A stretch of 64,000 nucleotides of DNA from Pseudohongiella sp. (GTDB taxonomy: Bacteria; Pseudomonadota; Gammaproteobacteria; Pseudomonadales; Pseudohongiellaceae), in the NCBI GenBank assembly GCA_030651695.1, contig JAUSCD010000022.1, positions 62,001-126,000 on the forward strand, given 5' to 3'. Under the pieces are notes generated by a model. It was given only the letters and a program-made list of their open reading frames with translations. It ran no database searches and was not told where the DNA came from. Both the position numbers and the translations under genes were made by a program. The stretch's first letter is position 1. The number at the start of each line of letters is the position of its first letter. Of the stretch, positions 24,908-29,717 are shown one piece after another.

Positions 24908-24981
24908 TGGAGCGGGTGAAGGGAATCGAACCCTCGTCACTTGGTTGGGAACCAAGAGCTCTGCCATTGAGCTACACCCGC
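24908..24981 (-). tRNA. tRNA-Gly (anticodon CCC), CCA end encoded
   Basis: A complete cloverleaf on the minus strand: acceptor stem GCGGGTG/CACCCGC, D arm GCTCAATGGCAGAGC, anticodon stem CTTGG/CCAAG with loop TTCCCAA (anticodon CCC), and T arm GAGGGTTCGATTCCCTT. U is the discriminator and CCA is encoded at 24908-24910. It closely resembles the E. coli Gly-CCC tRNA. It lies 17 bp beyond the stop of the coumarate ligase gene. No integrase gene or duplicated tRNA end is nearby. Confidence 0.96.
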
Positions 24982-24998: not shown

Positions 24999-26288
24999 CT
25001 ACCTCAGGCCGGATGTTTTGTCGATACCAACATCCGTTTTGAGGGCAGGGAAACCGCTGCGATAGACGCCGATCACAGCGTCGTATTGTTTTATGTTCCA
25101 TGTTACAGACTTGCTCAGTATCCCGCGCGGAAGTTCGTCTGCCACCACCACAGAAGCCGGTGCCGGGATGTCGCCCAGGTTTTGTTCAAGCCAGCGCGAA
25201 AATCCCAGGCACCAATGCTGGAGATTCCCGGGCTCTTTCCTGAGAGCCAGAAAGTAATCCAGCCGCAAGTTATTGTCTTGTGGTTCGTGCAGAACTTTTG
25301 CAGCCTCAACGTCCGGATGCTTCGTGAGTTCTTCTGCCAGTGTGTCCAGATCAATATTGTGACCGGCAATTTGAATGACTCTGTCTGTGCGTCCGCACAC
25401 GGTAATGCTGCCATCTGCAGCAATTTCTATTTTGTCCTGTAACAGATGTTGCTCATCAGTGATCGATGAAACGGCCGTCGTTTGCTGATGCAATTGATTC
25501 AGCTGCCACCAGGGCAGTAGTGTAAAACCGCTGTTACTGACAGTTCGCCACGCAAGCCCCGCTGTTTCCGAGCTGCCATAGATTTCTGCCATGGTTGCCG
25601 CAGGATATCTGGACCGGAAAAAATCCGCAGTAGCAGCTGGCAATGCGGCAGTCGAGCTGATGCCAACAAAATGATCGGGCAGCTGGATATCGAGTTCCAT
25701 CAGCAACTGCCAGGTGTCCGGTATCGCAACAATCATATCGTGGTCTTTCAGTTGCCGGGCCCAGCTTGTCGGCAGCGTGTCGTCAGTGTCTATAAATATA
25801 CACGGCACCTTATTCTCGGCAGGTAGCAAAATGCCCCAGATAAATCCGTAAATATGATGACTGGGCACAACGCAGACGGTGCGTCTGAAAACAGGCAGGG
25901 CACGCACAAAATACTCGGCTTCGGCGAGCAATTTGCCTGACTGGTGGCGGTGAAGTTTAGGGCCTGATGTGGACCCTGAGGAATAGAATCCCATTTCCTG
26001 ATCATTGATCTGACGGCTGCGTCTGGCAACGTCGCACCAGCCTTTGGCTGAGCGACGGGCCAGCAGAAGATCGGACAATCCGGTTCGGTCCAGGCCCATA
26101 CACGCTGCAAACCGGCTGGCCAACTGAACCATATCAAGCGATGAAAACCCGAAGCTGCGCGGATCGGATAATAGATCTAAGGGGTCTGTTTGTTGATCGG
26201 ACAGCAGGGAGTTCACGCCACGTCTTCTCAGAGCGTCGCGCAAAAAATCGCGCAGCCATTGCTCAAGTCCTTCCTTCTGCCACCACAT
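24999..26288 (-). CDS. pcl: 4-coumarate-CoA ligase of the photoactive-yellow-protein activation type
   Basis: 429 residues, an ANL-superfamily adenylating enzyme that should activate p-coumarate for attachment to PYP. The adenylation motifs are present: phosphate loop YSSGSTSGPK (about 102), YGSSETAG (about 246), and the hinge/acceptor motif GRTDRVIQIAGHNID (about 317). The first ~75 residues include FGFSSLDMVQLASRF, which looks like a carrier-protein-like helix pair. The short size and the directly adjacent PYP gene (13-bp gap from the PYP stop) match the specialised PYP ligase family rather than plant-type 4CL. No tyrosine ammonia-lyase is in the window. Confidence 0.85.
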   Translation of the reverse strand: MWWQKEGLEQWLRDFLRDALRRRGVNSLLSDQQTDPLDLLSDPRSFGFSSLDMVQLASRFAACMGLDRTGLSDLLLARRSAKGWCDVARRSRQINDQEMGFYSSGSTSGPKLHRHQSGKLLAEAEYFVRALPVFRRTVCVVPSHHIYGFIWGILLPAENKVPCIFIDTDDTLPTSWARQLKDHDMIVAIPDTWQLLMELDIQLPDHFVGISSTAALPAATADFFRSRYPAATMAEIYGSSETAGLAWRTVSNSGFTLLPWWQLNQLHQQTTAVSSITDEQHLLQDKIEIAADGSITVCGRTDRVIQIAGHNIDLDTLAEELTKHPDVEAAKVLHEPQDNNLRLDYFLALRKEPGNLQHWCLGFSRWLEQNLGDIPAPASVVVADELPRGILSKSVTWNIKQYDAVIGVYRSGFPALKTDVGIDKTSGLR

Positions 26289-26301
26289 AAGAACAATCCG
26301 T

Positions 26302-26682
26302 CTACAGGCGTTTTACGAATATCCAGTAGCTGCCTCCAACCAGTGCGGGCTTCATGTGCACCTTCACTTTGGTCGGGGACATCAGGTAGTCAAACGTGTA
26401 CTCCATCATCACACTGCCGCGCTCTTTCACAACTTTGTCAAATGCGCCTTTGAACTTGGGGGTATTGGTGCAGGGAGCGACGTCGGTGAAAAAGTTTTTA
26501 CCTATCACCTGCGAAGGTGCTCGCCCTGTAATGGCGCCTTCGGCTTCGTTGTACTGCAGAATCGTGCCGGTTGGATCCAGCTGGATTGCGCCGAAAGCCA
26601 GCTGGTCGATTTCCGAATTGCTCATTTTAGCGAGGCGGTTGTCGATATCGTTTGAACCAAAATCAATCACTTCGAGGGACAT
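26302..26682 (-). CDS. pyp: Photoactive yellow protein
   Basis: A 126-residue PAS-fold blue-light receptor. Its sequence follows Halorhodospira PYP closely ([64 protein letters not shown]). The chromophore Cys lies in DVAPCTNTP (Cys71 here, Cys69 in the reference). The chromophore-pocket residues Tyr42, Glu46, Thr50 and Arg52 are conserved as Tyr44, Glu48, Thr52 and Arg54. I start at the ATG at 26682 because GGAG stands six bases upstream; the frame extends four codons further to 26694. It is co-directional with the ligase that loads its p-coumaroyl chromophore. Confidence 0.96.
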
Positions 26683-26799
26683 GTGTAACTCCAAAAGCCA
26701 GGTTCGGCACGGATGCGCTGGACAAGGATAAATGTGCGGAATATACGAAGCTGCCGTCTGATCAGATCAGCCTTAGTGACAGGCAGACCGGGGTGAGAT

Positions 26800-27975
26800 C
26801 TATATTACCGGTGAAATAGGCACGTTCTGTCCGGATGACTCAATAGCGGAGTCCTCCGGGGCATTGCGAGTCTGACGCAGGGAGCTGGGGTTTCGGATAG
26901 CGTATTGTGTCATCCAGCGCAGCCCCATGAGCTGAGACTGGTTCAACAGCAGGGGATTCATCTGGCCGCGCAGGCGGTTCATGGCGCGCACGGCCTGCTC
27001 ATAACCAAACCGGTAAGAAATTTCATACCACATGTGTGCTGTTGCCAGATCCTGCTCGGTGCCCAGTCCATCAGCGTAAATCCGTCCCAGGAAAAACTGC
27101 GCAGTGGAGTCGCCACGATGGGCCGAACGGCTGAACCAGTAGCGGGCCTGTTCAAAGTCGCGCGGAACATCTGTGTTTTCAGCAGATGCGTAAATCATTC
27201 CCAGCTGGGTCTGGGCATCGCGCAGCCCCAGCCCGGCAGCCATCTCAAAATAGTCGCGTGCTTTTGCCATGCTGCGTTCAGTGCCACGACCTGAGGCGTA
27301 CATCAATGCAGCATTATATTGTGCGTCCACGCTGCCGTTGTCGGCAGCCATGCTGAACCAGGTCAATGCAACCGTGGGGTTGGGTTCTGTGCCCAGCCCA
27401 CTCATATGCATTACGCCGAGGTTGTACTGGGAATCCCTATGCCCCTGACGAGCGGATTCCTGGTACCAGCGCATGGCTTCCGGTAAGTTCTCGCGCATAC
27501 CCTGGCCATAAAAATTCATGGTGCCAACGGCATACTGACCATCCGCACTGCCGTTTTCGGCCGCTTGCAGGTACCAGTAATACGCTTCACGGTAGTCCTG
27601 GGCTACGCCTTCGCCACGGTCATACATCAGGCCAAGGTTAAACTGAGCCTGTGTCACCCCTTGCTGCGCTGACAGGGCATACAGCTGCATTGCATGTTCA
27701 AAATCCTGCTCAATGCCGATGCCCTGATGGTACATGAGGCCAAGATTGAACTGTGCCAGGGCGTGGCCGAGCATGGCGCCCTGGGTGAAATTTTCAAATG
27801 CGGCAGGATAATCACGTGTTTCAAAGGCCCGCAGACCGATTTCCACATCGTAGTTCTGCCTGTTGTCTTGCGAATGAGCAAAGGCCGGCACCAGCAGCAA
27901 GGTGAGCAGAAGCACACGCAGGAGTTGCAGCAGCTGTTTGATCGTTGAAATTATCGGGCATTTGAAAGTATTCAT
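26800..27975 (-). CDS. Secreted Sel1-repeat protein
   Basis: 391 residues from the ATG at 27975, chosen because a signal peptide follows directly (LLRVLLLTLLLVPAFAHSQ); the longer frame to 28176 would run into the divergent transporter gene. The mature part is a run of about eight Sel1-like repeats of ~36 residues (for example AQFNLGLMYDRGEGVAQDYREA and SQYNLGVMHMSGLGTEPN), forming a TPR-like solenoid used for protein-protein contacts. Function is unknown; periplasmic scaffolds of this type often serve envelope regulation. A promoter region shared with the divergent AbgT gene lies at 27976-28148. Confidence 0.87.
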   Translation of the reverse strand: MNTFKCPIISTIKQLLQLLRVLLLTLLLVPAFAHSQDNRQNYDVEIGLRAFETRDYPAAFENFTQGAMLGHALAQFNLGLMYHQGIGIEQDFEHAMQLYALSAQQGVTQAQFNLGLMYDRGEGVAQDYREAYYWYLQAAENGSADGQYAVGTMNFYGQGMRENLPEAMRWYQESARQGHRDSQYNLGVMHMSGLGTEPNPTVALTWFSMAADNGSVDAQYNAALMYASGRGTERSMAKARDYFEMAAGLGLRDAQTQLGMIYASAENTDVPRDFEQARYWFSRSAHRGDSTAQFFLGRIYADGLGTEQDLATAHMWYEISYRFGYEQAVRAMNRLRGQMNPLLLNQSQLMGLRWMTQYAIRNPSSLRQTRNAPEDSAIESSGQNVPISPVI

Positions 27976-28148
27976 GCCGCCGATTGTAGCGCGCCGAAGT
28001 ACGGGCCGCCAGACCACATTCGCTGAAGCGAATTGGCTCACACCCCCAGGGGCCGCACCTGGTGCCTGGATCCGGGTTGACAGCGCCTGCTCAGTGGTCA
28101 CAATGGATGCAGTTCCCAATAAAAAAACACATCCCAAGCGAGAATCTG

Positions 28149-29717
28149 ATGGATAACGGAATGCCTGAGACAGCAAAAAGGCGCGGCTGGTTTACACGTT
28201 TTCTCGATACCGTTGAGTGGCTGGGTAACCTGCTGCCGCATCCGGTGACACTGTTTGCCATGCTGGCGTTTCTGATGATCCTGTTGTCAGGCCTGTTTGG
28301 CGCCATGGGGGTGTCGGTTCCTGATCCCCGTCCGTCTGCCGCTGAAGGTGCAACCATTGAGGCGGTGAGTCTGATGAATGCTGCAGGTCTGCGCCGCATA
28401 TTGGAGAATCTGGTCTCGAACTTTGTCAACTTTGCTCCGCTCGGCGTGGTGTTGGTTGCCATGCTTGGGGTTGGCATTGCTGAAAAATCCGGCCTGTTGT
28501 CTGCGGTCGTGCGTGGCATTGTATTGAATGCGCCCAGACATGTTGTGACCATCGCCATTGTGTTTGCGGGTGTCATTTCCAATACCGCTTCCGAAATGGG
28601 ATACGTGGTGCTGGTGCCGCTTGCAGGGGCTATTTTTCTGGCGCTGGGTCGTCATCCTCTGGCGGGGATGGCGGCTGCGTTTGCAGGAGTCTCCGGTGGA
28701 TACAGTGCCAATCTGTTAATTGGGACTATCGACCCCCTGTTGGCCGGCATCACCCAGGAGGCCGCTCGCCTGATTGACCCGACATACGAAGTGTATGCAA
28801 CCGCCAATTGGTATTTTATGGCGGCCAGCACGTTCATGATTACTGCAGTCGGATCGGCAGTCACCATTTATATCGTGGAACCAAAACTCGGCAGCTACGA
28901 CGCTTCGGACGCTGATCCCTCTGTGCTTGATAACCGTATGATGGAAAATATCACGCCGGCCGAACGGAAAGGTTTGTCGGTAGCGGGCCTTGTTGCGCTC
29001 GCGGTATTTGCCTTGATGGCTGTGCTGGCGCTGCCGGAAACCGCACCGTTGCGCGATCCTGTTGATGGCAGTTCCGGTCCGTTTTTTCGCAGCATTGTTG
29101 CTTTCATTTTTTTGTTCTTTCTGGCGACCGGTTTTGCCTATGGACGGGTGACCGGATCCATGCGTAATGATCGCGACGTGATTGATGGTATGGCTTCTGC
29201 CATATCAACACTCGGGCTTTATGTTGTGCTGGTGTTTTTTGCCGCCCAGTTTGTAGCGTTTTTCGGATGGACAAATCTCGGCATCATCACGGCGGTCACC
29301 GGCGCGGATTTCCTGATCAGTGCTCAACTGACCGGCCCGGTGGTGTTCCTGTTTTTTATCATCATGTGTTGTTTTGTCAATCTGATGCTGGGATCGGCAT
29401 CAGCGCAATGGGCGGTGACTGCACCAATTTTTGTTCCCATGCTGATGTTGGTAGGTTATGCCCCGGAGTTGATCCAGGCTGCCTACCGCATCGGCGATTC
29501 AACCACCAATATCATCACACCGATGATGAGTTATTTTGGCCTGATACTGGCCTGGGCCACTCGCTATAACCGACGGATCGGCATAGGTACCATGATCGCC
29601 ACCATGCTGCCTTACTCGATATTCTTTTTTATCTTCTGGGTGGCGCTGTTTTACATCTGGGTTTTTGTGCTGGGTCTGCCGGTGGGGCCGGGCGCGGAAA
29701 CGTACTACATGAACTGA
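28149..29717 (+). CDS. AbgT family transporter
   Basis: 522 residues from the ATG at 28149, with about a dozen hydrophobic segments. It has the AbgT N-terminus (TVEWLGNLLPHPVTLFAMLAF), an early amphipathic loop, and the C-terminal RIGDSTTNIITPMMSYFGL region typical of the family. AbgT proteins import p-aminobenzoyl-glutamate or export sulfonamide-like compounds using the proton gradient. I started at 28149 because the frame further upstream to 28062 lies in the divergent promoter region. It is a single-gene unit. An 8-bp inverted repeat follows 60 bp downstream. Confidence 0.9.
   Translation: MDNGMPETAKRRGWFTRFLDTVEWLGNLLPHPVTLFAMLAFLMILLSGLFGAMGVSVPDPRPSAAEGATIEAVSLMNAAGLRRILENLVSNFVNFAPLGVVLVAMLGVGIAEKSGLLSAVVRGIVLNAPRHVVTIAIVFAGVISNTASEMGYVVLVPLAGAIFLALGRHPLAGMAAAFAGVSGGYSANLLIGTIDPLLAGITQEAARLIDPTYEVYATANWYFMAASTFMITAVGSAVTIYIVEPKLGSYDASDADPSVLDNRMMENITPAERKGLSVAGLVALAVFALMAVLALPETAPLRDPVDGSSGPFFRSIVAFIFLFFLATGFAYGRVTGSMRNDRDVIDGMASAISTLGLYVVLVFFAAQFVAFFGWTNLGIITAVTGADFLISAQLTGPVVFLFFIIMCCFVNLMLGSASAQWAVTAPIFVPMLMLVGYAPELIQAAYRIGDSTTNIITPMMSYFGLILAWATRYNRRIGIGTMIATMLPYSIFFFIFWVALFYIWVFVLGLPVGPGAETYYMN

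Follow-up and report, generated by a model that had tools for sequence, protein, structure and literature searches.

Photoactive yellow protein (PYP) is a model photoreceptor, and the accessible part of PMC12826048 draws the delivery of its p-coumarate chromophore to the receiving cysteine as a transfer from free coumaroyl-CoA. For the operon of Halorhodospira halophila, the same part of that paper describes the activities of the ligase and the lyase and the attachment to Cys69. It also reports a tyrosine ammonia-lyase (TAL) in 5% of 113 pyp operons, with a TAL encoded elsewhere or the uptake of p-coumarate suggested as the source; histidine or phenylalanine lyases are suggested in the available portion of PMC9664959. 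The locus analyzed here lies in a window of 64,000 nucleotides, the whole stretch of DNA studied, from a genome of Pseudohongiella, a genus for which a literature search found no paper joining its name and 'photoactive yellow'. Here a pyp gene is followed on the minus strand by a ligase gene that starts 13 nt after the pyp stop (Table 1).

Table 1. The pyp-ligase locus and its boundaries, in window coordinates
Feature	Positions	Strand	Basis and remarks
tRNA-Gly(CCC), bounding the pyp-ligase pair on its downstream side	24908..24981	-	also downstream of the ligase in L001-L006
PYP-type p-coumarate ligase (P0002), 429 aa	24999..26288	-	best family TIGR02372, 200.1 bits, below cut-off; tree; Lys393 invariant
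Adenylation domain of ligase, residues 96-429, P-loop YSSGSTSGPK	24999..26003	-	PF00501 match, residues 101-249 to profile 168-329
Carrier-protein-like domain of ligase N-terminus, residues 1-95, Ser50 codon 26139-26141	26004..26288	-	profile match against 200 shuffles; AlphaFold; Foldseek
Photoactive yellow protein (pyp, P0001), 126 aa	26302..26682	-	TIGR02373 above cut-off; 66% identity to H. halophila PYP, pocket residues retained
Sel1-repeat protein, conserved upstream neighbor, signal-like N-terminus (by eye)	26800..27975	-	PF08238, 215 bits

The earlier note had recognized a complete PYP with Cys71, Tyr44, Glu48, Thr52 and Arg54, and this is borne out by a score of 180.9 bits against the TIGR02373 equivalog profile (cut-off 143.05) and by the presence of all five residues, which correspond to C69, Y42, E46, T50 and R52 of H. 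halophila (Cys71 codon at 26470-26472). The nearest solved chains are also photoactive yellow proteins (best E 1.1e-50). The completeness stood but the extent did not: position 26694 is an upstream TTG of the mechanically called open reading frame, and the gene starts at the ATG at 26682. The chromophore cysteine and the pocket residues are fixed in 11/11 PYPs of Pseudohongiella, and dN/dS is 0.029-0.062 in 7/7 pairs. Binding of p-coumarate, absorption near 446 nm and a photocycle are predicted. Identity to the relatives in loci L001-L008 is 83-89% for PYP and 45-53% for the ligase. The protein is as sparse as had been claimed, with two of 397 genomes of the phylum (each at least 90% complete) passing the PYP cut-off, one of them the window's own; the PYP tree, in which few forks are supported, is little guide to its origin.

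Within the genus, PYP occurs in 11/15 genomes (that of the window included). In the window and in all of L001-L008, the gene directly behind pyp is the ligase. The window and 7/7 long loci also have the Sel1-repeat gene ahead of this pair, and the tRNA-Gly is absent behind the ligase in L007 and L008. In the PYP-less genomes G020, G025 and G018, the tRNA-Gly follows the Sel1 gene at about 90, 330 and 440 nt, respectively, and neither pyp nor the ligase was found between the two; G018 and G020 are incomplete (85 and 72%), with the locus itself present in both, and in G018 the Sel1 gene is interrupted by a stop codon. At this site, pyp and ligase are present or absent together. The fourth PYP-less genome, G027, has neither the tRNA nor pyp at its Sel1 site. 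The Sel1-repeat protein was considered as a PYP-specific partner and rejected, because its gene is found in 15/15 genus genomes, four of them without PYP, and is a core gene of the genus. An AbgT-family transporter gene (28062-29717; PF03806, 675 bits) adjoins the Sel1 gene in the window; none of the genes in the seven long related loci matched it. In another genus of the family (G034:C337, L106:1444-2706), the contig ends, behind a Sel1 gene, in a segment that is 80% identical to PYP residues 49-94, so that the linkage may predate the genus.

Several further observations concern pyp and pyp-like genes in other loci. From just before pyp through most of the gene (L003:1201-1600), L003 is 61-84% identical to L002 per 100 bp, against 91-100% elsewhere over 3.1 kb in all. 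The corresponding dS is 0.88 for PYP and 0.09 for the ligase, and the trees place the L003 PYP with L001 (98/84) but the L003 ligase with L002 (100/100). It appears that the pyp allele alone was replaced in L003, an assembly chimera of the bin being the alternative; L007 and L008 show a weaker version of the discordance (dS 0.46 vs 0.18). There is also a divergent PYP-like class (L054:12003-12398, L057, L058, L059 and L080; also L041 in G028) with 25-29% identity to P0001 and a retained cysteine; the five members that were aligned have Leu at the site of H. halophila residue 52. Plasmid-borne members adjoin diguanylate cyclase and EAL genes and mostly also a PYP-type ligase, and several members are annotated 'phosphonate transporter'. 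Two tandem PYP-like matches lie upstream of the ligase in L009 (6702-7504), which comes from a Comamonadaceae bin where PF00221 found nothing.

The gene beside pyp had been called a PYP-type ligase, a claim that is upheld by the larger of two trees and by its best curated family, which is by far TIGR02372 (4-coumarate--CoA ligase; residues 37-389 matched), at a score below the cut-off of 334.7 bits. Three other genus members (185-216 bits) and four PYP-linked ligases from outside the genus (L010, L012, L054 and L014; 182-294 bits) also fall below it. The Indioceanicola gene annotated as pcl exceeds it with 343 bits, and seven of the compared ligases (L082-L087 and L053) lie above. The larger tree places the ligase inside a 34-row PYP-type group (97/92), with four outgroup rows outside (two short ligases from plasmids and two further ligases from the window's genome). 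In a smaller tree, which also held the outgroup rows L081a and L081b (excluded from the larger one because their branches are long), the PYP ligases were not recovered as a single group. On the larger tree, a placement with general ligases is not favored. Lys393 is invariant in 14/14 aligned rows and the other invariant columns of that alignment are also kept in P0002; nine of the 11 genus members have lost the last P-loop Lys, which survives, in the alignment, in P0002 and L006. Values of dN/dS of 0.12-0.38 in the six pairs, of seven, with estimable dS (near-saturated in one of the six) indicate that the ligase is under purifying selection, and activity on p-coumarate is predicted by analogy with characterized enzymes. 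A decaying system, in which the ligase is failing and PYP would serve as an apo PAS domain or hold another ligand, would fit the fast-evolving ligase core, the changed P-loop and the lack of a lyase in 8/11 PYP-bearing genomes of the genus. It is quite improbable given the cysteine and pocket fixed in 11/11, the purifying selection on the ligase and the joint absence of both genes at this site in three PYP-less species.

Most of the usual N-terminal ANL subdomain is missing from the adenylation domain, and the structural matches of the full-length model are adenylate-forming enzymes (Foldseek). The first 95 residues, in a region that the TIGR02372 profile itself already covers, hold the motif FGFSSLD (residues 46-52) and had been described in the earlier note as carrier-protein-like. 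This likeness is supported by a controlled profile comparison, by AlphaFold and Foldseek, and by sub-threshold PP-binding matches in relatives, the absolute scores being weak. The segment is not, however, peculiar to this protein: its serine, Ser50, is invariant in 34/34 PYP-type ligases compared (11 of the genus and 23 others), including sequences at 24% overall identity. On these alignments, the carrier-like domain is a trait of the whole PYP-type ligase family and not of this protein alone. No description of a carrier domain in a PYP ligase was found in the titles and abstract openings searched, which covered few subscription papers and do not thereby prove novelty, and the available part of PMC3992019 describes none in this type of ligase.

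The interesting question posed by this N-terminus is whether Ser50 bears a phosphopantetheine arm. The domain may be a working carrier, with p-coumarate loaded in cis onto phosphopantetheine at Ser50 and passed by the arm to Cys71, CoA not being the main acceptor in vivo, a reading that we regard as possible though less than probable. Alternatively, and with a probability that we would place only slightly short of even, the domain descends from a carrier but carries nothing, replacing the missing ANL subdomain or docking PYP, with p-coumaroyl-CoA as the donor. The invariant serine argues for a working carrier and against a non-carrying descendant, because a purely structural domain would have no obvious use for it. 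The residue after it is Leu in 32 and Ile in 2 of the 34 ligases, and the Asp before it, which completes a D-S-L motif, is present in 22/23 ligases outside the genus, again as in a working carrier. Within the genus it is present in 0/11, having been replaced by Ser (seven), Asn (two), Ala or Thr; P0002 retains the Ser and Leu with Ser in place of Asp. This loss counts against a working carrier and in favor of a non-carrying descendant, and because of it the earlier suggestion that the segment could hold the activated coumarate is unproven. Conversely, 4/11 carrier domains encoded in the window's genome also lack the motif Asp, and two of them have Ser there (GGSSL and VSSL), a point for a working carrier. 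The same genome contains giant NRPS/PKS-like open frames (G000:C35:157974-191894; 2508-4329 aa) with eight PP-binding matches and a ninth in a small frame, implying that it has a phosphopantetheinyl transferase.

A profile of the 34 ligase N-termini matches one of the genome's 11 carrier domains with a score of 27.4 (probability 61%, E 8e-5) and with the serine motifs aligned; the best of 200 column shuffles reaches 16.5. A 25-sequence profile scores 25.8, against a shuffle maximum of 14.9 and 9.8 when reversed, and the genus alone, the remaining ligases alone and P0002 alone score 23.6, 24.0 and 18.3. When the three D-S-L columns are masked, the score drops to 13.7, inside the shuffle range, and thus the sequence signal depends on the motif. 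Pfam PP-binding (PF00550) was matched by 10/31 N-termini scanned (2/14, 2/8 and 6/9), including 6/7 ligases above the TIGR02372 cut-off (the exception being L053), which favors a working carrier. Against it, every match is below the gathering score (best relative 18.5 vs 20.8 bits), P0002 has none, and TetR_C_43 also matched 2/14 N-termini, more weakly (best E 0.055).

Predicted alone from a 14-row alignment, the domain (pLDDT 86, pTM 0.78) forms helices at residues 5-23, 50-63, 71-77 and 81-95, and Ser50 begins helix II, as in carriers. The model's 18 PDB matches are individually non-significant (Foldseek E 1.9-9.8), and carrier proteins make up nine of them (2cq8, 9a4c, 8jfh_F, 6m01_B, 2n5h, 3ejb_A, 5h9h_B, 9ka7_C and 6tg5, some chains being assigned by length), with no adenylate-forming chain among the 18 (6m01_B judged by length). 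The model makes a four-helix carrier-like fold fairly well supported, and the fold, the position of the serine and the carriers among the matches are points for a working carrier, while the high E-values and the masked-motif score count against it. The weak absolute scores and the collapse under masking could also mean that the segment is an eroded ANL N-terminal subdomain whose carrier likeness arose by chance; this is very improbable, given the margins over the shuffled and reversed profiles and the composition of the structural matches. Chance likeness in general is unlikely after the shuffles, although the masked-motif control was poor.

The constraint on domain and core is inverted in the genus. 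In 55/55 pairs within the genus, the N-terminus is more identical than the adenylation core (mean 64% vs 47%), while among the 23 other PYP ligases this holds for 14/253 pairs (27% vs 37%), the pairs sharing ancestry and hence being non-independent; of seven pairs tried for dN/dS, five gave estimates for both parts, and in 5/5 of these the N-terminus has the lower value. The genus pattern agrees with a working carrier, the pattern outside the genus does not, and strong conservation beside a very conserved PYP would also suit a non-carrying descendant that docks it. We read the domain as a carrier or docking module whose sequence is kept matched to PYP as the core diverges, though a relaxed demand on the adenylation core could produce the same inversion. 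Published work also bears on the choice, as the accessible text of PMC12826048 has CoA as the acceptor, counting against a working carrier, and reports that the H. halophila enzyme is active as a CoA ligase, in keeping with a domain that carries nothing. A more general proposal, which we consider somewhat unlikely, is that PYP 'CoA ligases' are carrier-adenylation enzymes that graft p-coumarate from their own arm without release of coumaroyl-CoA, the Pseudohongiella carrier being constrained together with PYP, its core drifting and its chromophore scavenged.

The absence of a tyrosine ammonia-lyase gene from the window, already remarked on, was confirmed and can be extended to the whole genome (G000; 3.86 Mb, 100% complete), where a search with the aromatic/MIO ammonia-lyase profile PF00221 gave 0 matches. 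The profile is likewise unmatched in seven more of the 11 PYP-bearing genomes of the genus, giving 8/11 in all (G000, G015, G016, G019, G021, G023, G024 and G026), while G017, G022 and G028 have one match each. Two of these three lyases carry a His-Leu selectivity motif (HHL), which we take to mark tyrosine lyases, and the third TFHG; in G017 and G028 the lyase gene and pyp are on different contigs. Beyond the genus, 13/15 genomes with a PYP-type ligase have a PF00221 match, the two without being the metagenome bins G009 and G011. The lyase is of the HL type in 8/15, and, leaving aside the partial match of G013, the other matched genomes have other motifs. In the order of G445, an HL-type lyase lies 8.5-10.9 kb from the ligase in 6/7 genomes found.

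With most genus genomes lacking a detectable MIO lyase, uptake is the likeliest source, and p-coumarate is probably imported from outside. Of the two explanations raised in the accessible text of PMC12826048, a TAL elsewhere or uptake, the 8/11 genomes without an MIO lyase favor the latter. Synthesis inside the cell by an enzyme unrelated to the MIO lyases is unlikely: the strong conservation of PYP in genomes without a lyase does call for a reliable source, but no candidate was found, and the sole marker tried, ApeI (PF22818), is absent in 15/15 genus genomes, with a weak control in which the E. coli match itself fell below the cut-off. That absence excludes an aryl-polyene route to a p-coumaroyl thioester only for clusters with this marker.

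Taken as a whole, the locus is to us rather probably a two-gene blue-light-sensor cassette in which the ligase attaches scavenged p-coumarate to apo-PYP. p-Coumarate would be taken up from outside, for example from dissolved plant or algal phenolics, and the ligase, judging by characterized relatives, would adenylate it with ATP. The N-terminal domain would serve as a conserved contact or carrier unit and deliver the activated acid to PYP, and a thioester on Cys71, again by analogy with characterized relatives, would yield the yellow photosensor. The PYP score above its cut-off, the paired genes, retained pocket, purifying selection, joint absence at the site, predicted carrier-like fold, lack of an MIO lyase and published activities of the H. 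halophila operon all speak for this cassette; the sub-cut-off TIGR02372 score, the P-loop Lys lost in 9/11 genus members and the D-S-L Asp lost in 11/11 count against it.

The gene pair itself is ordinary, PYP and ligase being of known kinds; what stands above the ordinary is the carrier-headed ligase family together with the lack of a detectable lyase genome-wide. Like the H. halophila operon, the locus has a PYP with the same pocket residues and a ligase directly downstream, but it has no TAL in the operon and a ligase far from canonical. With the TIGR02372 ligases of other PYP loci (L082-L087 and L053), it shares an architecture of carrier-like N-terminus with invariant Ser and short adenylation domain, and it differs in the lost Asp, in an N-terminus more conserved than the core and in scores of 185-216 bits (four genus members scored). 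Aryl-polyene and flexirubin-type ligases (L078, in a carrier/ketosynthase/lyase cluster, and FlxY, which activates p-coumarate) are likewise short ANL ligases beside an aromatic ammonia-lyase; unlike the ligase here, L078 has an N-terminus that is longer (P-loop at residue 140) and shows no such motif by eye, and the larger tree sets it apart from the PYP-ligase group. The EntE-EntB aryl-carrier fusion similarly combines adenylation and aryl-carrier modules and heads the Foldseek matches of the full-length model, which include many plain CoA ligases; that search lacks aligned ranges and does not indicate which part matches EntB. In EntE-EntB and other adenylation/carrier pairs the carrier follows the adenylation domain, whereas here the carrier-like domain precedes it, in place of the N-terminal ANL subdomain. 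With its serine invariant in all 34 ligases, such a domain offers a direct and testable alternative to delivery by free coumaroyl-CoA, one that could matter for engineered PYP.
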